In this document: positions 8,641-19,035 of the stretch, piece by piece | Numbering within the stretch: the first letter of the stretch is position 1 | How the letters are laid out: the number at the start of each line of letters is the position of its first letter | Source of the DNA: Kiritimatiellia bacterium | GTDB lineage: Bacteria > Verrucomicrobiota > Kiritimatiellia > RFP12 > UBA1067 | Direction of reading: 5' to 3' | Assembly: GCA_027858965.1 (NCBI GenBank) | Contig: JAQIBS010000168.1 | Coordinates: 1 to 64,000 of the forward strand | DNA length: 64,000 nt | The notes under the pieces: generated by a model | The model's input: the letters and a program-made list of their open reading frames with translations, nothing else | Told to the model about the DNA's origin: nothing | Database searches by the model: none | Program-made: the position numbers and the translations under genes

Positions 8641-11600
8641 CTACCGAAGGAGAAGAATTGTTCCGGGTGCTGCATATCTGACATACGCCTCTTTTGCAGA
8701 ATCATTGACTTTCAAGCTCCATCCCTGTGTAAGCCCGCTGACACTCACCGATGAAAGATCACCACCTGTCACCGTCCCGGTCCAGGTCAAGACCGTAATT
8801 GTATCAGCACGGCGTGTTGTCCAGACACTCTCCTCCAGTGCGGTAATATCTATCGCCGTTCCGCTGTCGATCACCAGGTCTCCATTCAAAGTCACAAGGT
8901 CATTGGCAGCCAGACCGATATCCAGAGCTAGCGTTCCATTGAGATTCAGGACCGTTGGAGTAAACGCACTGCCAAGTGTCAGTTTTCCACAACTTGCGAC
9001 ATCAGCACCCGGAGCGAGCGTGCCGTCAACCGAGATAGATACACCTGGCTGTTGCTCAATAGCACCACTGCCACCCAGAACACTGCCGACATCAGCAATG
9101 AAATTTCCTCCTGCGGTATTGGTTCCGTTGACAAACAGCGCCCCTTCATAAACATGGGTTACAATAGCATAGCTGTTTGATCCACTCAGATAGGTAGCTC
9201 CTGATCCGTACTTCACCAGATTCATATTGCTGCCGCTCATGTTACATGCCAGTGTCTGAATATTGGTCACCAGCAGCTCAACCGTATTATTGGCTACAAA
9301 CGCGATTGGACCGAAATCCGCACCATCAGCGAGAACAAGTTTACTATTGCCTGTTTTTTCAAAGCCTCCGTCACCGGCATCCGACGAACTGAAGACCGCA
9401 CCACGCCAGAGTGCTCTTTTAGAAGTGGACTGATAAGCAACCTGCACCAGCAATGTTTCATTGGTGACATCCACCGGGTTCATCCAGGTCACTTCATCGG
9501 TTGCATAGTCATTCTGCAGACGCAGGCGTGCAGGAGAAAAGCCATCCACTCCCATGGTCAGCTGTCGACTGTCGCCCCCCAGATTAACGGTGAACGGACC
9601 ACCATAAGCTGCAAAACCGCCGCCAAAAGCCCCGCTGTTATTGTTCGCATAGCCTGGGGCTACATCGTTAACCTCACCCCAGCGAACCTCTCCAGACTCA
9701 CTGCCGGGCGCACGATCAAAGGTGCCGGTCATCTCCAATATGCCGCCGCCGGTATTAACATCACCGCGTCCGCAGAGATCGATATTGATTTTTGTAGGCA
9801 GGCTCTTTTCATCCATCAGCCGCAACATACCATGCACAGCCAGGTCACCTTTAAAAGCGCTGTTATCACCGCTCAGTTTAACCACACTGCGCACACCGCC
9901 TCCGGTCCAGTGATTCATCACCATCACACCCTCACCGCTGATATTACCGGCCACATCAAAAAGAATGCGGCCTGCATGCGTATTGTCATCACCAAAGAAG
10001 GTCAGACCGCCACCGCAGACACGGATGTTACGATTAGAGTGCAGATTGATCGTCACACTCTCATCCGCCGGTGCACGCAACATAGCCATGCCGGAGGTCA
10101 TGATGTTGTTGGTCGGCTGTGCAGGCACGGGTCCCAGAGAGAGGTCATCCGCAATGGCCAATGCGGTATCCAGGATCACCGTACCGCCGGAATAGGTGTT
10201 GGTCGGTTGCGTCAGCTCGACCAAAGGTCCAGTCGCAATGGACATATTAACAGCATCCCACTCACGTCCGTAGGCAAACAGAGCGATCGGGGTAGCTCCA
10301 TTATCTGAGATCAGCGAATCGACAATCAAACCAGACTGGCCACCAACTACATTGCGCCTCGAAATATTATCATGGAAATCATAGAGCATCAGATCCACAC
10401 CATTACCGCTGGTCAGTGTGCCACCTGTGATGCGTGTATTCCTGGTTGCTCCGTTGCGGGCCACAACAGTGCCGCTGCCGACCACCGTTGTGCCGGGTTC
10501 CTGCAAGGTCAACGTTACAGCATCCTCCATGCGTAGGCTGTTGGCAGCCAAACCGGAGGCAGCTGAACTTGACATCATCCAGAAGTTGCTTGTCGCACCG
10601 AATCCGTCGTCGTAGGTCTCCAGAGCCACAATTTTACCGTCATTATCAAGGGTGCAGAGAGTGCTGGTAATTCCGATAAAAGCGCCGGGTACAACGGGAT
10701 TCCCTGATCCGAAAGCAATCTCCGATGCATCTCCTTCGACAACCACACTCAGGTTGGTGTAGGTTGTTATACGGATGGCGCCGCCGGGCTGACGCCGGGC
10801 TGTATCAAAAATCAAGGCAGCCGCATTCAAAGAGGTATTTACCATTGTATAATAGAGACCGCGACCGAATGCGACATCCAGCAAGCTGTAATGCTGCTGA
10901 TAGACGGTACCGTCGGTACCGCAAGGCAGATAGATCTTGCCTCCGCCATATTCACCGCCCATGATCAGGGTTGCATCCGGATTGATCAGATCCCACTTGG
11001 CCGGAGTATTGCCACTGGCGGTACCACTGCCGTTCTGAAACTCCGCATTCTCGCCGCTCACACGAACTCTGGAGAGATTGGGTGCGCCATCACTGCTGGT
11101 GGACTGCAGGAACAGTCCCTTTTTTGCAAAATATTCGCCATCGAAGATCGGCTGGGAGTACATCACCAGACGCTGCGAGCCACTCAGCATCAGCGGGCCT
11201 GTTATATTTTCAGTCAGCATCGCCGATGCCGAGCCGCCGATGCCGCCGCCACCGTTAAAGCCAGCCGTCACAACATCAGAGGACGTATATCCCTGACCGC
11301 AGCAGGTAACCACCACACCGGTAACGACACCACTGCTGTGATCAATAAACGCCACGGCTGTTGCATTGCTGCCGCTGCCGCCGGAGATAGTAACGCGCGG
11401 CGGAGCCAGATAACCGCTGCCACCATTACTGAGAGTCAATCCTGATACTCCCCAACCACCGGGATTCTGCAATTCACCGGTGATCCGCGTACCGCTGCTC
11501 CCGGAATGCTTGATTTCCAGACCACCCTCATACAGCGTGACTGAACCGATGGTGCCAAAAAGCGTCGTCAATTCTGATGTTCTGACAAGATCCAGAACAC

Positions 11601-12699
11601 CTCCGTCCCCATTCAGATAGGATTGCCCACCCGAGTGACCTCTTGTAATACTCGCTGCACACAAAGTACCGCCCCGGTTGAGGTTGACAACGGCTGTGCC
11701 GGTTGAGAGATGGGTTGTCGAACGCAAATAGACAGCCCTTGTACTTTTCACGACAGCGTCGCCATCTACGGTTAGCTCAGCATAGGAATCAGCAGAAGAG
11801 GAGGATGCTTCTGAAAGCAGCTTGATGTGCACATCAAACCAGGAAGAACCGCCGTCGGCATAGTAAACACCCTCCGTTCCGTCATATCCGCCGCAGATGT
11901 CAAAATGGTAGTCAGCTAAGACACCATTGGTATTGACCTGCAACTGCCCCCCACGCTGATAGAAGAGCGAGGTGGAATCATCTTTAACACACAGACGATA
12001 GCGTGTGTTGCCCGCACCATACGGCAGATCCAGAACACCACCTGAAAGTTCGTAGTAACCATATCCATAATAACCGGGAAGAAAGCGTCCTACCGATCGA
12101 ACCAGGCCGCCCTCCTGAATAATTGAGCCGACAGAACCAGGTTCCCGCCCTAGAGAGATCCCATAGTCTGTATCCGTTGTACTCAGCAGCAGCTTTGCAT
12201 TGTCCCTGATTATGACCCGTCCATTAGCGTTGTCGGCATTGCCCACATAAAGGGCATGATCATTGGTGGCAGAAAAAACCGCATTGCCGGAGAGAGTCAG
12301 CCAGACCATCTCACCAGCCTCCTCGCCCACACTCAAGATTTTCTTACTACCTGAAATCAGAGATCCCCGCAATTCGGTCCGTCCCTTGACAAGGGTAAGC
12401 CAATCCAAGGCAAGCATCCCGTCAAAGATACGCACAGAGCTATTATCGGGATTATCCACCTTTAATCCCGTAATTTCAGATATGCCTTCATCCGCATTAA
12501 CCACTGCACCGGATGTAAAGGTATTGGCAAAAAGGGCTGTATCACCACTACCAGGGACCACACCACCGGACCAGTTATTGACATCAGACCAGTCGCCATT
12601 TTCGGTAGCACTCCAGCTACGATCCGCCGCCAACGCATTCACAGTAAAACACAAAACCGCCAACATAATTACACAACATAATGATAATCTTCTAAGCAT
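8641..12699 (-). CDS. Autotransporter-associated beta-strand repeat protein (giant exported protein)
   Basis: The start is set at 12699: MLRRLSLCCVIMLAVLCFTVNALA is a Sec signal preceded by AGGAGAGGG. The 31 extra ORF residues come from repeat-B-like sequence. About 1352 residues of Gly/Asn/Thr/Ser-rich beta-helix sequence follow. The autotransporter-associated repeat is clear near the C-terminus (FVNGTNTAGGNFIADVGSVLGGSGAI; LAPGADVASCGKLTLGSAF). This architecture is abundant in PVC bacteria as secreted or surface passenger-like proteins. No barrel domain and no PEP-CTERM tail is visible; the protein ends APGTILLLR. A large surface adhesin or glycan-associated protein is plausible, but the function is unknown. 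Confidence 0.8.
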   Translation of the reverse strand: MLRRLSLCCVIMLAVLCFTVNALAADRSWSATENGDWSDVNNWSGGVVPGSGDTALFANTFTSGAVVNADEGISEITGLKVDNPDNSSVRIFDGMLALDWLTLVKGRTELRGSLISGSKKILSVGEEAGEMVWLTLSGNAVFSATNDHALYVGNADNANGRVIIRDNAKLLLSTTDTDYGISLGREPGSVGSIIQEGGLVRSVGRFLPGYYGYGYYELSGGVLDLPYGAGNTRYRLCVKDDSTSLFYQRGGQLQVNTNGVLADYHFDICGGYDGTEGVYYADGGSSWFDVHIKLLSEASSSSADSYAELTVDGDAVVKSTRAVYLRSTTHLSTGTAVVNLNRGGTLCAASITRGHSGGQSYLNGDGGVLDLVRTSELTTLFGTIGSVTLYEGGLEIKHSGSSGTRITGELQNPGGWGVSGLTLSNGGSGYLAPPRVTISGGSGSNATAVAFIDHSSGVVTGVVVTCCGQGYTSSDVVTAGFNGGGGIGGSASAMLTENITGPLMLSGSQRLVMYSQPIFDGEYFAKKGLFLQSTSSDGAPNLSRVRVSGENAEFQNGSGTASGNTPAKWDLINPDATLIMGGEYGGGKIYLPCGTDGTVYQQHYSLLDVAFGRGLYYTMVNTSLNAAALIFDTARRQPGGAIRITTYTNLSVVVEGDASEIAFGSGNPVVPGAFIGITSTLCTLDNDGKIVALETYDDGFGATSNFWMMSSSAASGLAANSLRMEDAVTLTLQEPGTTVVGSGTVVARNGATRNTRITGGTLTSGNGVDLMLYDFHDNISRRNVVGGQSGLIVDSLISDNGATPIALFAYGREWDAVNMSIATGPLVELTQPTNTYSGGTVILDTALAIADDLSLGPVPAQPTNNIMTSGMAMLRAPADESVTINLHSNRNIRVCGGGLTFFGDDNTHAGRILFDVAGNISGEGVMVMNHWTGGGVRSVVKLSGDNSAFKGDLAVHGMLRLMDEKSLPTKINIDLCGRGDVNTGGGILEMTGTFDRAPGSESGEVRWGEVNDVAPGYANNNSGAFGGGFAAYGGPFTVNLGGDSRQLTMGVDGFSPARLRLQNDYATDEVTWMNPVDVTNETLLVQVAYQSTSKRALWRGAVFSSSDAGDGGFEKTGNSKLVLADGADFGPIAFVANNTVELLVTNIQTLACNMSGSNMNLVKYGSGATYLSGSNSYAIVTHVYEGALFVNGTNTAGGNFIADVGSVLGGSGAIEQQPGVSISVDGTLAPGADVASCGKLTLGSAFTPTVLNLNGTLALDIGLAANDLVTLNGDLVIDSGTAIDITALEESVWTTRRADTITVLTWTGTVTGGDLSSVSVSGLTQGWSLKVNDSAKEAYVRYAAPGTILLLR

Positions 12700-12732
12700 G
12701 ACCCTCTCCTGTATGTAGTTCCAAAATACTAA

Positions 12733-12756
12733 CGTTGCTTTCAGTCGCAACCAAGT
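12733..12756. repeat. Dispersed repeat B copy
   Basis: gttgctttcagtcgcaaccaag matches the copies at 8400 and 51204. It lies about 35 nt upstream of the beta-strand-repeat gene start on the minus strand. Confidence 0.65.
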
Positions 12757-12759
12757 GTA

Positions 12760-13202
12760 GTAGTCGTTCATAGAACGGCTACTACATTTCAATTTATTGA
12801 CTTTTACAACATTCTTATATTAACGTCTGATCTATCTTTAAGACAAGAATAAAAAGAGTGCGTAAAGGTTAGTAGTGCTATTCGGCAATTCGACAGGCTC
12901 ACTACAGGCAAGTTCAGGTGTTTAGCATTTCAGGCTGTAGGCTATTAGGTGAAATTCATCTGAATTTTATACATGAATATTGGTCTTTGTTGTCGGTATC
13001 GCAATCAGCATCGGTATCGAATCTTATCCCATGGTTGCTGCGTTCGATAGCGATACCGAGTAGCGATGATTCACCCATTAAAAACTCGGAAGAACCTAAA
13101 ACAAGCAATGTGCATGTAAAATAAACCTTCCACTTTTGCTCGCCCGAGAATTCCACTTTTGCTCACCGCCCAACAATGCTAGTGAAATCACTTGCTTATA
13201 TC
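12760..13202. other. Intergenic region with mixed low-complexity arrays
   Basis: No credible gene was found. It holds ttcgacaggctcactacaggcaag (12888-12912; a related form is near 37437), an array-like tttagcatttcaggctgtaggctattaggtg (12917-12952), and a cggtatcg-rich stretch with inverted gatagcgataccgag (12990-13065). The phrase ttccacttttgctc also occurs twice (near 13129 and 13151). The 12956-13156 ORF is a shadow of this composition. Confidence 0.5.
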
Positions 13203-13216
13203 AGAACAAATGTTCT
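13203..13216. promoter_or_regulatory. Candidate SOS (LexA) operator, GAAC-N4-GTTC type
   Basis: AGAACAAATGTTCT is a perfect 5-bp dyad with a 4-nt spacer, identical in form to the Gram-positive-type LexA box GAACnnnnGTTC. It ends 11 nt before the preferred start (13228) of the LexA/UmuD-like gene, a fitting position for autorepression. Confidence 0.65.
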
Positions 13217-13227
13217 ATTATTGCGAA

Positions 13228-13815
13228 ATGGCACCAAAATCAAAGATAAATAAACGAATTCCCGTTTTACGGGATTATATACGACAGACGGGACGCGCTC
13301 CCACGCTGCAGGAGCTGTGTGAAATTTTTGATGTTAAGTCAAAAAACACCGCTACTTTAATGGCCAGGCGTTTTATTGAGGCGGGCGTTCTCAACAAAAC
13401 AGCGAGCGGCCGTCTCTGTGTTCCTGCCCGCATGGGAAGCCCTATGAAATTACTGGGCAGTGTGAGTGCCGGATTTCCATCCCCGGCTGAGGAGTCGCTG
13501 CTCGACACAGTGAGTCTGGAAGAGTTTCTGATACAGCGCCCGGATTCCACCTTTATGCTGCGGGTAGATGGTGACTCTATGATTAATGCCGGCATTCTGC
13601 CGAATGACATTGTGTTAATTGAACGCGGTCGCGCAGCCGCAAACGGAGATATTGTGATTGCCTGTGTGGATGAAGAGTGGACAATGAAGTATTACTATAA
13701 AACAGGTCGCGATGTCCGTCTTGAACCAGCTAACAAAAACTACAAAACCATTCGCCCTGAGCGTTCGCTGAGCATTGAGGGGGTTGTGTGCAGCGTAGTA
13801 CGCAAGCTTAATTAG
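13228..13815 (+). CDS. LexA/UmuD-like S24 family repressor-protease
   Basis: The ORF opens at a TTG at 13192, but the ATG at 13228 (MAPKSKINKRIPVLRDYIRQTG) starts the fold properly and leaves the SOS-like box upstream. The N-terminal winged helix-turn-helix (RAPTLQELCEIFDVKSKNTA) precedes a cleavage-type stretch (LGSVSAGFPSP, AG bond). The S24 protease core has MLRVDGDSMINAGILPNDI (catalytic Ser in GDSM) and NGDIVIACVDEEWTMKYY (catalytic Lys). It is about 196 residues, typical of LexA. It either represses SOS genes or acts as the self-cleaving partner of the adjacent Y-family polymerase. The next gene is 163 nt downstream. Confidence 0.85.
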   Translation: MAPKSKINKRIPVLRDYIRQTGRAPTLQELCEIFDVKSKNTATLMARRFIEAGVLNKTASGRLCVPARMGSPMKLLGSVSAGFPSPAEESLLDTVSLEEFLIQRPDSTFMLRVDGDSMINAGILPNDIVLIERGRAAANGDIVIACVDEEWTMKYYYKTGRDVRLEPANKNYKTIRPERSLSIEGVVCSVVRKLN

Positions 13816-13961
13816 GGGATAGGGAGCTGAAGGGGTTAGGGAGCTGGAGGGAGCTGAAGGGAGCTGAAGGGGTTAGAGACATAAAGAACACTGTAACTAA
13901 TCAAAGACACATTGTGAATTATTTTGTCTACCCTTATCCCCTCCAGCTCCCTATCCCCTAA
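13812..13961. repeat. Inverted array pair between the lexA-like gene and the polymerase gene
   Basis: TTAGGGGATAGGGAGCTG (13812-13829) is the exact reverse complement of CAGCTCCCTATCCCCTAA (13944-13961), an 18-bp stem with a loop of about 114 nt. The left arm includes the TAG stop region and continues as gggagctgaagg repeats. The right arm is G-poor and lies just ahead of the polymerase ATG. Confidence 0.9.
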
Positions 13962-13978
13962 ATCATCTAATCACCCCT

Positions 13979-15256
13979 ATGACAAACGAATGTACAATGC
14001 TGCATGTGGATGCGGATGGTTTCTTTGCCTCCGTGGAGCAATCACTTAACCCTTCATTGCGAGGCAAACCGGTTGTCACCGGTGCAGAGCGAGGAATCAT
14101 TGCTGCCGCAAGCTATGAGGCCAAAGCTCTCAATATCGGACGCGGCATGCAGCTGCACGAAGCGAAAGCGCTCTGCCCGAGGCTAGTGATCCTTCCCTCG
14201 GATTATGAATCCTACAGCATCTACTCCAACCGCATCTTTAATATCCTGCGTCGTTTCACCCCCTCCATAGAGGAGTATTCTATTGATGAGGCATTTGCTG
14301 AGATTGCAACAGGCCGAGATGTCTGTTTTGAGACACCGGAAATGCTTGCCGCAGAGCTCCGAAAAACAGTTCGACAGGAGCTGGGACTGACAGTCTCGGT
14401 AGGCATCAGCCTGACAAAAACCCTAACGAAAATCTGCTCCAAATTCCGCAAGCCCGATAATCAAACTGTTTTAAGAGCAGAGCATATTCCCCTCATGTTG
14501 AAAATCACTCCGATTGAGAAGGTCTGGGGAATCGGAAATGCAAGCGCAAAAAAACTCCTGCAATACGGCATCAGCTCTGCATTGGATTTTACTCAGATGA
14601 ATGAGTCTGCCGTAAAAAAGCTGCTCCACAAACCTGGCCATGAAACATGGCACGAGCTGCAGGGACATCAACGGTTCCGTTTGAACGAGAACCCCTTCCG
14701 AACATATGATTCTATGATGAAAGGGCATACATTCTCGCCACCCAGCAACAACCCTGATTTTATTTTTGCGGAAGCGGTTAATAACATGGAGCGGGCTCTG
14801 GCCAAGTTGCGGCGTCACCGACATCTGACCAGAGAGATCGGTCTCTCGCTACGCCTCAAAGAGTACCATCATCAATCAGCCGCACTACGCACCTCGCTGC
14901 CAACCGACAACAACCGGGAGCTGATTGCACTGCTTCGCCAGCTGTTTACAGCACTGTTTATTCATGGACAAACCTATCGTTCCACAACTGTCTGGCTGGC
15001 AAATCTGGAACCTCCGCATCTGCGACAACCGGATCTCTTTGAAGCGCGCCCGCAGAGCGCAGAACAAACCCAGCTGCATCAGACAATCGATAAACTAAAC
15101 AAACGTTTTGGAAGTAACAGCGTTCAATCCGCAGCACTGCTGAATTTACGGGAGAAACCGACACACTCGCGAGATGCAAAACCGAAACGTTATGACAAAC
15201 TGCTCAAAGGGGAGACGAAGGTAAGACACCTTAACATCCCCCGCATGACGCTATAG
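13979..15256 (+). CDS. dinB: Y-family DNA polymerase (DinB/UmuC type)
   Basis: A 425-residue translesion polymerase. The catalytic acids lie in MLHVDADGFFASVEQ and EEYSIDEAFAE. The fingers motif is AAASYEAKALNIGRGM, the helix-hairpin-helix region is KVWGIGNASAKKLLQYG, and a little-finger domain follows. No zinc or RecA-type extension is present, and the overall size is nearer UmuC (about 420) than minimal DinB (about 350). Pairing with the upstream S24 protein and its LexA-type box makes SOS-induced mutagenic synthesis the likely role. There is no Shine-Dalgarno sequence; the ATG follows a G-poor array. UmuC-like naming is an alternative. Confidence 0.88.
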   Translation: MTNECTMLHVDADGFFASVEQSLNPSLRGKPVVTGAERGIIAAASYEAKALNIGRGMQLHEAKALCPRLVILPSDYESYSIYSNRIFNILRRFTPSIEEYSIDEAFAEIATGRDVCFETPEMLAAELRKTVRQELGLTVSVGISLTKTLTKICSKFRKPDNQTVLRAEHIPLMLKITPIEKVWGIGNASAKKLLQYGISSALDFTQMNESAVKKLLHKPGHETWHELQGHQRFRLNENPFRTYDSMMKGHTFSPPSNNPDFIFAEAVNNMERALAKLRRHRHLTREIGLSLRLKEYHHQSAALRTSLPTDNNRELIALLRQLFTALFIHGQTYRSTTVWLANLEPPHLRQPDLFEARPQSAEQTQLHQTIDKLNKRFGSNSVQSAALLNLREKPTHSRDAKPKRYDKLLKGETKVRHLNIPRMTL

Positions 15257-15273
15257 TAGCACCAGATACGCCC

Positions 15274-16998
15274 CTACCTGACAATCTCCACTCCATCCGG
15301 AGCCTTTATTGTGCTTTTAATTTTCCCATCCGCCCCTTTTTCATGACGGACTTTTATCACACCCAGCGGTGTTGGGAAACTACCCTCAGCCCACTGCAGA
15401 TCACCCAGCTCTGGTTTAACACTGACTTTCCTACATCCTGCCGCAACTGGCTGAATACCAAGCACATGTGCTGTCAGCCAGGGTGCTGGACCGGAGGCCC
15501 AGCCATGGCAGAAACTGTGACGAAAGCCCTTGTAGCAGTAAGCACCGTAATCACCATGGATATCCTTCTTTCCCTCAATCGCCATCTGATCAATATGAAA
15601 GGCATTATTTGTCCAGCTGACATTGAAATCCTCCCAGAAGCTGGTGGCACCCATATCCAACATAGCCCCCCAGTAATCACGTACAGTATCAATTCCCAGC
15701 TGCACATCACCAGCCTCAGCCATCGCCTCAAGCATATAATAACCATAGAAGGTGGAAACGCCCACGGTGTCATTCTTAGCCAGCACCTCGTTATGCATCT
15801 CCGCTGCAGAGCGCAATCCGGCCAGAGCCAGCAGGGCAGCGGCCGCTTTACTCTCATGCGGTTCAGGAATATATTTTTGCAAACGGGCCGCACCGGCTTC
15901 ACACTTTGCCTTTAAATCACTGTCGCCCAGCACCTCTGCCATTTCCACGCCGTTTCTATAAGTCATCAACATCAGCGACTGCATGCCGGCATCTACCGCC
16001 GGACGGTTGGCCTGGGTCGGCCAATCAAGAAAACCACTCGGCAGGGCACAGGCATTATTGGCCCCGATGTGCTTATCAAGATTCGCGAAGACCTCTTTAA
16101 TATACTTCTGATGCCCTTTTAGATACTCAAGGTTGCCGGTATAGAAATACCAGTCATGCTGGCAGCGCAGCCACCAGAGGGTATAAGAGGGCATGCCATT
16201 CATCCAACCATCAGCGGCAGTTGTTGACTGCATATAGTCAAGAGATGCATTAACCACATCCTGCGGACCGAATACAGCCATCATCGACATCACCTCTGGA
16301 TGCATATCCCCCATCCAGACAAGACGATCGCGCTTGATGCCATCCCAGATATACTCCTGACAACATAGATGCAACGTACGTGCAGCAGTCTTCCAGACAT
16401 CATTAACACGCTCATCACTACACTTGAATGATCCCAGCTGCGGCATATCACGCATCAGGGTCACAGCCCTGATTGATTCAAGACTGAGCACACCCTTAGT
16501 AATCAGATCAACTCGCACAAAACGAAACCCGCTGTTGCCAATCTCACGACTTCCAAGCCAGGGAAGATCAACTACGCTATCACGAATTGCATGGTCGTTA
16601 CAGGCACCGCGTTCCCCTAACTCAGCCATAGCTTCGGCAACCGACTCACCGAAACGCACACGCACCTTGAGTCCCTTACCGCTTGGACCTCCTGCGGCCA
16701 AGTGTACACCTCCATGCAATTCACGACCGAAATCAACGAGCACCGATGCAGCCTCTCCCTTATTCTCCATACGGCAACCGGAACCGGTCAGAAAGACACC
16801 TTCAGGCACCTGTCCATATTTTTTTGTCAGCAGGATCTTTGGATTAGCGATCGAGGATTTATCGCTATTCGGTGATGTCCATACAACACGTGTCGGCATC
16901 ACAAATGAACGTACGCGGGGATCACGGGTTTCACCAGCTGTTAATGATACGACCGCACAACACAGGAGTGTAGCCGCGATGATGTTTGTTTTCTTCAT
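15274..16998 (-). CDS. GH78-like alpha-L-rhamnosidase family protein, exported
   Basis: About 574 residues with a signal peptide (MKKTNIIAATLLCCAVVSLTAG). The ATG at 16998 has GGAAA at good spacing; an upstream ATG at 17013 is also open. A beta-sandwich (VLVDFGRELHGGVHL) precedes the (alpha/alpha)6 barrel. The GH78 signature region is IWDGIKRDRLVWMGDMHPE. Further conserved parts are GWMNGMPSYTLWWL and FCHGWASGPAPWL, and a C-terminal beta domain follows (VSVKPELGDLQWAEGSFPTPLG). It would release terminal rhamnose from glycans. It is next to a sulfatase on the same strand, suggesting degradation of a sulfated rhamnose-bearing polysaccharide. The exact specificity is inferred. Confidence 0.82.
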   Translation of the reverse strand: MKKTNIIAATLLCCAVVSLTAGETRDPRVRSFVMPTRVVWTSPNSDKSSIANPKILLTKKYGQVPEGVFLTGSGCRMENKGEAASVLVDFGRELHGGVHLAAGGPSGKGLKVRVRFGESVAEAMAELGERGACNDHAIRDSVVDLPWLGSREIGNSGFRFVRVDLITKGVLSLESIRAVTLMRDMPQLGSFKCSDERVNDVWKTAARTLHLCCQEYIWDGIKRDRLVWMGDMHPEVMSMMAVFGPQDVVNASLDYMQSTTAADGWMNGMPSYTLWWLRCQHDWYFYTGNLEYLKGHQKYIKEVFANLDKHIGANNACALPSGFLDWPTQANRPAVDAGMQSLMLMTYRNGVEMAEVLGDSDLKAKCEAGAARLQKYIPEPHESKAAAALLALAGLRSAAEMHNEVLAKNDTVGVSTFYGYYMLEAMAEAGDVQLGIDTVRDYWGAMLDMGATSFWEDFNVSWTNNAFHIDQMAIEGKKDIHGDYGAYCYKGFRHSFCHGWASGPAPWLTAHVLGIQPVAAGCRKVSVKPELGDLQWAEGSFPTPLGVIKVRHEKGADGKIKSTIKAPDGVEIVR

Positions 16999-17051
16999 TT
17001 TGATTTTTTCCATTTATTTATTTCAAAAGCACAGGGTATCGGGCATGGGGC

Positions 17052-17198: not shown

Positions 17199-18683
17199 CT
17201 AACGAATATTCTCATCCGGCAGGGCCTGCTTAATGCCCTCATCAATCGGCATTTTGTCGGTCTCTTCTGTCAGATCTAAATCTTCCATCAACTCTTTTAA
17301 ATCTTTTCGTAAGCGTTTAACAACCTTGGCATATTTAGGTTTGGCAATCAGGTTATAGCGCTCTTCTGGATCAAACTCAATGTTATAAAGTTCAGCCATA
17401 TGCCTATCAGGAGAACCGTCACCATGCGGGTAGCGGGTGTATTTCCACTCAGCGGTACGTATGCAGCGCACATTCGGAGTATAGGGGAATTGCTTTTCGT
17501 AATTGTAGTAATAAAAACAGGAGTCACGCCAGCGGCGATCTCCTTTCTTCACCAGCTTAACCCACGACTTACCGTGGATATCCTTCAAAGGTTTGGCATC
17601 GCAAAGCTCCAGAATACTGGGAGCAATATCAACAGTGAGAACCTGTTTATCGATTACCTTTGGCTGATCAACCGGAGTCAATCCTGGATAGCGCACCACC
17701 TGAACAATACGCATACTGGGCTCATGTGCAGTACGCTTATCCACCATTCCATGCTCTCCACTCAGAATGCCGTTATCACTCATAAAAACAATGATCGTGT
17801 TATCCAGTTCTCCGCGCTCTTTTAGAAGATTATAAAGACGGCCCACACTGTCATCAACAGAAAGAAGCGTTGCCCAGTAGGCGCGATTCATGGCTTCAAA
17901 ATCCTTAACAGCCTCCGGCGAGCTGTCAGGGAATTTCTTGCGCCAGTCAAAGAGCGGACCGTATATACCGTGCCAGGTGCTGAGGCGATCCTTAATCCAC
18001 TTAGGCTTATCATCGAGCATAAATGCAGTCTCAGGATAGGGAAATGGCTGATCCTTAAAGGCATTCTCATATTTCTTTTCAGGTGTATAGAAGCTATGCG
18101 GGGCTTTATGACCGATCATCAGGCACCAGGGCTGCTCTTTTTCTCGCGGACGATTGAGCCACTCCTCAGCCATATCGGTGAGAACCGTAGTGTAGTAACC
18201 CTTAACAACCTTGCGTCCCTGCCCATTAAAATTGAACTCTGTATCGAAATATTTTCCCTGTCCCTTATGAGTTACAAACCAGTTAAATCCGGGACGGGGC
18301 TCATCGTTATTCTCCCCCATGTGCCACTTTCCAATGTAGGCGGTATCGTAGCCCTCAGACTGCAACACCAAAGGAAAACTCTTCATCCCGGAAGGATACT
18401 CAGTGAAGTTATTGACCACACCATGTGCATGGGCATAGAGACCGCTCAGAATTGAAGCACGGCTGGGCGAGCAGAGCGAGGTTGTGCAAAATGTATTGGG
18501 AAAGTAGATACCCTCTTTACCAAGACGATCCATATTGGGCGTTTTCAAATCCTTATTACCAGAGAGCCCAATAGCATCCCATCGCTGATCATCGGTCAGA
18601 ATAAAAAGCACATTCGGACGCTTTGCCATCAGACTGGCAAAGAGAGAAAAAAACACACACACGCTCAGCAGATACCTTTTCAT
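17199..18683 (-). CDS. Sulfatase (formylglycine-dependent, S1 family)
   Basis: The start at 18683 is preferred: [20 protein letters not shown] is a signal peptide and GGGAGG lies upstream, while the ORF start at 18746 adds unrelated residues. It is 494 residues. The metal-binding DD is in [11 protein letters not shown]. The formylglycine site is CSPSR (C71), requiring anaerobic or FGE-type maturation. Further active-site parts are [18 protein letters not shown] and [14 protein letters not shown]. It hydrolyses sulfate esters on glycans in the periplasm or outside the cell. It is encoded with the GH78-like enzyme and is probably a mucin-, fucan- or ulvan-like glycan sulfatase. No dedicated maturase lies in the window; the radical SAM gene at 49 kb is of another type. 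Confidence 0.9.
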
Positions 18684-19035
18684 CAAAACAATCCTCCCAT
18701 CATTAAAGATGAATGAAACTTTAACCTTTAAGAGAGTGCAAGTCAAGAAAGAGGGAAGGGAAGAGATGGATGAATTATGAATGATGAGTGATCGAGGTAA
18801 TCGATCTATAATATTTTACTGAACAACTCTGATGCGGAAATCACAGGCCTGTCTGCGTGCTGCGAACATGCAACTCAGTTGCTGCCATTTGCGTCCACTG
18901 CGTAGCGGCGGACATACTGAGCAACTTAAAGGATATTCGCGCAGAAACAATTTCTCTGGTCAAGCTCATAGCGCTCGACCTACTTAAATAATCAGTAAAA
19001 CACGTAGTGTTTTCTCCTAATTCAGCGAAGCTGAA
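18684..19035. other. Intergenic region with array and palindromes
   Basis: No gene is seen. Upstream of the sulfatase, on its strand, lies CATCATTCATAATTCATCC, a before-start array. Further on are tgctgcgaacatgcaactcagttgctgcc and gctcatagcgctcgacctac (also in inverted form near 17.14 kb). A perfect hairpin lies at 19017-19039. Confidence 0.5.

Follow-up and report, generated by a model that had tools for sequence, protein, structure and literature searches.

Escherichia coli divides the roles of repressor and polymerase partner between LexA and UmuD. The closest functional analogue of the protein analysed here, P0002, is UmuDAb of Acinetobacter, which likewise joins a UmuD-like self-cleaving C-terminal domain to an N-terminal DNA-binding part (PMC4807011, PMC11332147). 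UmuDAb acts in a LexA-less host, regulates itself and error-prone polymerases, and is sometimes found in an operon with umuC; it cleaves at Ala83–Gly84 (PMC4807011), and its A83-G84, S119 and K156 occupy nearly the same positions as A81-G82, S117 and K154 of P0002. The features by which UmuDAb is recognised, namely a DNA-binding head, a LexA-less host and an operator before error-prone polymerases, are all found here. The two differ in that the head of UmuDAb, compared by description, is unrecognised by domain searches, whereas that of P0002 is clearly a LexA-type winged helix-turn-helix (wHTH). UmuDAb binds a large TTGA/GTnAC/TCAA element with the aid of DdrR, while the candidate operator of P0002 is a simple AGAAC-N4-GTTCT or TGAAC-N4-GTTCA palindrome, and the polymerase that accompanies it belongs to another Y-family type.

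Canonical LexA of Bacillus and other Gram-positive bacteria has the same GAAC-N4-GTTC core, spacing, architecture and autoregulation as those predicted for P0002, but the regulon here apparently comprises only the S24 gene itself and a polymerase, the C-terminal domain lies nearer UmuD, and the outer operator bases are A..T in the window's clade and T..A in the wider family. FddR of Francisella is similarly an S24 repressor of a tiny network, encoded divergently from the gene it controls, which in some species is dinB, and leaving recA unregulated; it is phage-CI-like and binds GTG-N11-CAC, whereas the P0002 head is LexA-type (PMC13148647). HdiR of LexA-less Streptococcaceae, whose targets in L. 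lactis are its own gene and that of a UmuC homologue, groups with phage repressors and has a head different from that of P0002 (PMC8565304). The Geobacter sulfurreducens lexA-imuB-C-polY operon resembles this locus in combining lexA and a Y-family polymerase in one transcription unit with recA outside the regulon (PMC6511836), but contains ImuB-C, and its repressor binds GGTT-N10-AACC (PMC8565304). Functionally, P0002 would belong with UmuDAb, HdiR and FddR, as the centre of a very small polymerase-directed network in LexA-less hosts, with a different domain pedigree and operator.

The literature searched contained no account of this S24 family in Kiritimatiellota; an earlier mention within work on Verrucomicrobia LexA is possible. 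The nearest published case in the PVC group is reportedly that of Verrucomicrobia LexA, the motif of which is another box, TGTTC-N4-GAACA. This box was found at no S24 locus, its one match among 270 loci being at a second-polymerase locus (L260).

A conserved palindrome in the S24 promoter

The window, meaning the 64-kb stretch of DNA analysed, belongs to a Kiritimatiellota metagenome-assembled genome (MAG) of 5.93 Mb and 92% completeness (G000). The palindromic operator AGAACAAATGTTCT, with its GAAC-N4-GTTC core, occupies positions 13203..13216 (+), inside the 18-bp spacer between a -35-like element, TTGCTT (13192..13197, +), and a -10-like element, TATTAT (13216..13221, +), which shares one base with it. 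Its end lies 11 nt upstream of ATG 13228, where the S24 gene starts; neither TTG 13192 nor the in-frame ATG 13210, which lies inside the box, is the start, and ATG 13228 was preferred over ATG 13210 because of the conserved M-A/S-P-K/R-S-K start of the protein. The position and core of the box given in the preliminary description are thereby confirmed, and its placement at the start of the gene holds in the sense that the box lies in the promoter, with the open reading frame now beginning at ATG 13228. As the -10 position puts the predicted transcription start at or beside the ATG, the S24 mRNA is probably leaderless in the window. Across the clade (L009–L025) the -10 element ends approximately 6 nt before the ATG, and many wider-family members have longer leaders.

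A single exact GAAC-N4-GTTC is not significant alone: two occur in the window against 0.82 expected, and exact AGAAC-N4-GTTCT occurs at six sites in the G000 genome against five for the backwards control. Significance comes from position and conservation. The clade set comprises 17 promoters, that of the window and those of 16 orthologues (protein identity 61–79%), the clade MAGs being 81–94% complete. These promoters read TTGC-N7-AGAAC-AAAN-GTTCTATA-AT, with the ATG at a nearly fixed distance; the TTGC is kept in nearly all of them and the exact GAAC-N4-GTTC in 13 (0.017 expected), and in the G037 promoter the site reads AGAGT-AAAA-ACTCT, a change that preserves the dyad. The homologous promoters of the best 80 among 550 relatives confirmed in GTDB genomes (L064–L143) were compared as well, and 64 of them keep the exact core, against 0.13 expected. 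In the same 80, no match was obtained with a spacer of N3 or N5 or with any of four palindromes that were unrelated or reversed, and the control GTAC-N4-GTAC gave three. Outside the clade the site is TGAAC-N4-GTTCA, usually preceded by TTGACA or TTGAAA and followed by TATAAT-like elements. By their labels, the relatives include Kiritimatiellae, Lentisphaerae, Nitrospirae, Omnitrophica, Armatimonadetes, Patescibacteria and others.

Variation at the operator was also recorded. Changes from GAAC to GTAC, in the full site or a half-site, occur in the S24 promoters of L088, L089, L099, L117 (Pontiella sulfatireligans) and L133; a recognition-helix proline (SKNAVY-x-P) is common to four of these five loci and is present as well at L115, where the box is unchanged. 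Across the 80 loci, outer A..T pairs with Thr41 of the S24 protein (18 cases) and outer T..A with Ala41 (41 cases), an association that the distant L118 also fits. Because only two independent contrasts fall on supported branches, the apparent co-evolution of the outer base and residue 41 is a lead and not a result.

The S24 protein and the associated polymerase

P0002 (195 aa; 13228..13815, +) comprises a LexA-type winged helix and a UmuD-like S24 domain. The predicted structure and TIGR00498 place the DNA-binding domain at residues 1–67 (13228..13428, +), with helices at residues 4–21, 27–33 and 39–51, the last of which is the recognition helix (KNTATLMARRFIE, approximate boundaries). Its SKN-T/A is presumably unlike the Gram-positive LexA counterpart. 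The predicted self-cleavage site Ala81–Gly82, within SAGFPSPAEE (13468..13473, +), and the predicted catalytic residues Ser117 (13576..13578, +) and Lys154 (13687..13689, +) are invariant in 60 homologues. P0002 scores above the cut-off of the LexA equivalog TIGR00498 (120.9 versus 110.95 bits) and barely above that of the UmuD subfamily NF007621 (110.8 versus 110 bits), matches PF00717 strongly, and lies under the cut-off of PF01726, LexA_DNA_bind (16.8 versus 23.7 bits). By itself, the C-terminal domain scores 74 bits against UmuD versus 62 bits against LexA. The AlphaFold2 model (mean pLDDT 81.5) shows a confident three-helix head, with block pLDDT of 88–95 for residues 11–60, and an S24 domain, with a low-confidence linker between them; its best fold matches are full-length LexA structures, then UmuD'. 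UmuD is characterised by a short N-terminal arm and no DNA-binding domain, whereas P0002 has a winged-helix head of approximately 67 residues. Judged from these comparisons, P0002 is intermediate between LexA and UmuD, with a LexA-type wHTH joined to a UmuD-like self-cleaving domain.

The Y-family polymerase P0001 (425 aa; 13979..15256, +) has intact catalytic DxD and SIDE motifs, matches PF00817 at 152.9 bits, and scores higher against DinB models than against UmuC. Two further elements are kept in orthologues: the beta-clamp-binding motif QPDLF at residues 350–354 (15026..15040, +), and a DUF4113 N-terminal/RecA-NT-like tail motif at residues 365–387 (QLHQTIDKLNKRFGSNSVQ...; 15071..15139, +), the match to which (E 0.0014) is below the Pfam cut-off. 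Such a tail has been proposed to bind RecA (PMC6511836). Sequence and model support the claim that an operator with the Gram-positive LexA core belongs to the gene of a self-cleaving S24 protein, that this protein has a complete winged helix of LexA type, and that a Y-family polymerase is linked to it. The cassette of operator, S24 gene and polymerase is present as had been described, but it is not perfectly compact, since the polymerase follows only after a 163-bp spacer. An inverted repeat, long and imperfect, takes up this spacer: TAGGGGATAGGGAGCTG... / ...CAGCTCCCTATCCCCTA (13815..13975, no strand assigned; fold z-score -5.6). It is possibly a mobile or REP-like element. Stretches resembling ggagttagg/cctaactcc were also seen near the cassette in relatives L016, L146 and L149. 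Because no separate box precedes the window polymerase, which lies beyond the spacer with its strong inverted repeat, coexpression of the polymerase with the S24 gene is assumed. A conserved third subunit between the two genes was considered and rejected, the larger gaps in relatives containing unrelated small genes. Judged from their translations, the neighbours in the window at 8641–12792, 15274–17013 and 17199–18746 encode a very large protein rich in repeats (autotransporter/adhesin-like), a glycoside hydrolase resembling rhamnosidases and a sulfatase; none appears linked to the cassette.

The polymerase and the S24 gene co-occur. A polymerase orthologue (55–72% identity) is encoded in 16 of the 17 searched genomes with a full-length S24 protein and in none of the five without; in relatives of the latter kind (G010, G015 and G026), an S24 match directly adjoins a UmuC-like polymerase. 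Gene order varies across the 80 loci. The wider family has 39 tandem arrangements, 22 loci without a polymerase in the examined flank and none divergent; in the clade, 14 loci are divergent and three lack a flanking polymerase, and tandem order is limited to the genus of the window, where one case is a fragment. That case is genus-mate G002 (L011/L065), which keeps the S24 gene and box directly before a C-terminal polymerase fragment of approximately 53 residues. In most of the clade, then, the S24 gene and polymerase diverge around one shared box.

Polymerases unlinked to the S24 gene carry the box as well. Near-full-length orthologues (37–47% identity) lie elsewhere in 17 of the 19 genomes without a polymerase in the S24 flank. 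An exact box was found within 250 nt of nine of the 18 unlinked polymerases tested (0.07 expected), the other nine lacking it, and at none of the 12 second Y-family polymerases of the same genome group. Within the clade, the polymerases of G014 and G042 are on another contig and have the box. These boxes support a trans action of the site on the polymerase. The G014 copy (L146/L191, C36) keeps its box with an unrelated gene, not S24, on the other side. The genome of L140 (G086) has 12 polymerase matches, of which several are partial, and this points to amplification or a mixed assembly.

Extent of the regulon and competing readings

LexA is defined functionally by control of the canonical SOS network (PMC8565304). 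Such control was not found in G000, where the recA promoter could be read and carries no box and where no convincing second operator occurs genome-wide; the SOS-wide regulon expected in the preliminary description, with boxes before recA and other SOS genes, was therefore not recovered. The five exact AGAAC-N4-GTTCT sites other than that of the S24 gene have no convincing promoter context and look like chance matches. In each of the 17 clade genomes an operator model (R1) recovered the S24 promoter, with nothing else convincing in G000 (next site at E 2.25) and few extra sites across 20 clade genomes. The recA promoters of clade genomes have no box where they are readable, starts having been found in approximately half of the recA loci. 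In 16 wider-family genomes, extra operator sites lie at the G062 and G065 polymerases, among others, the G062 site being the strongest of the extra ones, and no recA was seen; other sites (R2) in the wider genomes were set aside as mostly weak or before unrelated genes, for example a TetR regulator.

No second LexA was identified. The 17 genomes with a full-length S24 protein encode no further LexA-type or UmuD-type S24 protein, the exception being G014, which has two copies of this type; in G001, an S24 match also lies inside a 765-aa open frame. Two candidates were rejected: a second S24 match in G000, a 102-aa protein without a DNA-binding head, and weak PF01726 matches in G017 and G018, which appear MntR/DtxR-like on reading their sequences. 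Two findings had been named that together would overturn the original proposal, a lack of boxes before other SOS genes and a separate lexA gene with a different box; the former is what was observed, and no gene of the latter kind was found. The regulon thus seems, from these searches, to be minimal, consisting of the S24 gene itself and one Y-family polymerase.

We consider it highly probable that P0002 is an autoregulated, DNA-damage-sensing LexA/UmuD-hybrid repressor dedicated to one translesion polymerase in a minimal two-gene module. By the precedent of LexA and UmuDAb (PMC8565304, PMC4807011), a dimer of the 195-aa protein would bind AGAAC-N4-GTTCT through its LexA-type winged helices and would block RNA polymerase, because the operator fills the -35/-10 spacer. 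RecA filaments on single-stranded DNA would then trigger self-cleavage at Ala81–Gly82 by Ser117/Lys154, parting the DNA-binding head from the dimerising domain, so that the head leaves the operator and the S24 gene and polymerase are derepressed. The polymerase would be reached by read-through over the 163-bp spacer in the window, where cotranscription is presumed, divergently from the shared operator in most clade members, and from its own box where unlinked.

An extension of this hybrid-repressor reading is possible, though we regard it as rather doubtful: cleavage may also free residues 82–195 as a UmuD'-like dimer that serves as a subunit of the co-induced polymerase. The UmuD leaning of the C-terminal domain (74 versus 62 bits), the UmuD-type GFPSPA cleavage region, and the predicted length of the product, 114 aa, which matches UmuD', are consistent with this, as are the clamp motif and RecA-NT-like tail, which the polymerase has as UmuC does, the co-occurrence of both genes, and the lack of another UmuD-like S24 protein in the 17 searched genomes, the same-type copy in G014 apart. 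DinB-type enzymes need no UmuD, however, and P0001 fits DinB models better than UmuC. Moreover, UmuDAb failed to complement an E. coli umuD mutant (PMC4807011). The fuller proposal, that one RecA-triggered Ala81–Gly82 cut both lifts repression and creates a UmuD'-like polymerase-arming subunit, in a self-contained mutagenesis switch recurring in Kiritimatiellota, Lentisphaerota, Nitrospirota, Omnitrophota and others, is put forward tentatively and with slightly less confidence still.

Two other explanations depart from the hybrid-repressor reading. P0002 could be an ordinary chromosomal LexA controlling a full SOS regulon, the remaining operators having drifted away from the self-operator and escaped the searches; its score above the LexA equivalog cut-off, its standing as the sole LexA-type protein found in the genome, and the resemblance of stand-alone copies in other PVC genomes to free lexA genes point this way. 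The box-free recA promoters readable in the window and clade genomes, the dearth of further operator-model sites in G000 and in the 20 clade genomes, and the extra sites at the G062 and G065 polymerases but at no recA seen in the 16 wider-family genomes make this improbable. Less probable again is that the palindrome reflects chance or promoter structure, or that a different regulator binds it. The exact core is indeed about as frequent as chance predicts, both in the window and in the genome overall, but 64 of 80 promoters keep it with strict spacing, it is placed within the promoter, dyad-preserving changes occur, copies precede unlinked cognate polymerases, and no other LexA-type protein was found.

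Implications for damage responses in the PVC group

With this cassette, the PVC group gains a concrete candidate for a damage-response repressor, together with its operator and target, and its lineage joins those of UmuDAb, HdiR and FddR, in all of which the damage response appears to centre on regulating a translesion polymerase. The recorded shift of the outer bases, T..A becoming A..T as residue 41 of the recognition helix goes from Ala to Thr, may offer a small system of protein–DNA co-evolution. As an apparent intermediate between LexA and UmuD, P0002 bears on the kinship of both families, and derepression plus activation by one cleavage becomes testable; if true, P0002 would fuse in one protein the roles of both E. 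coli LexA and UmuD.
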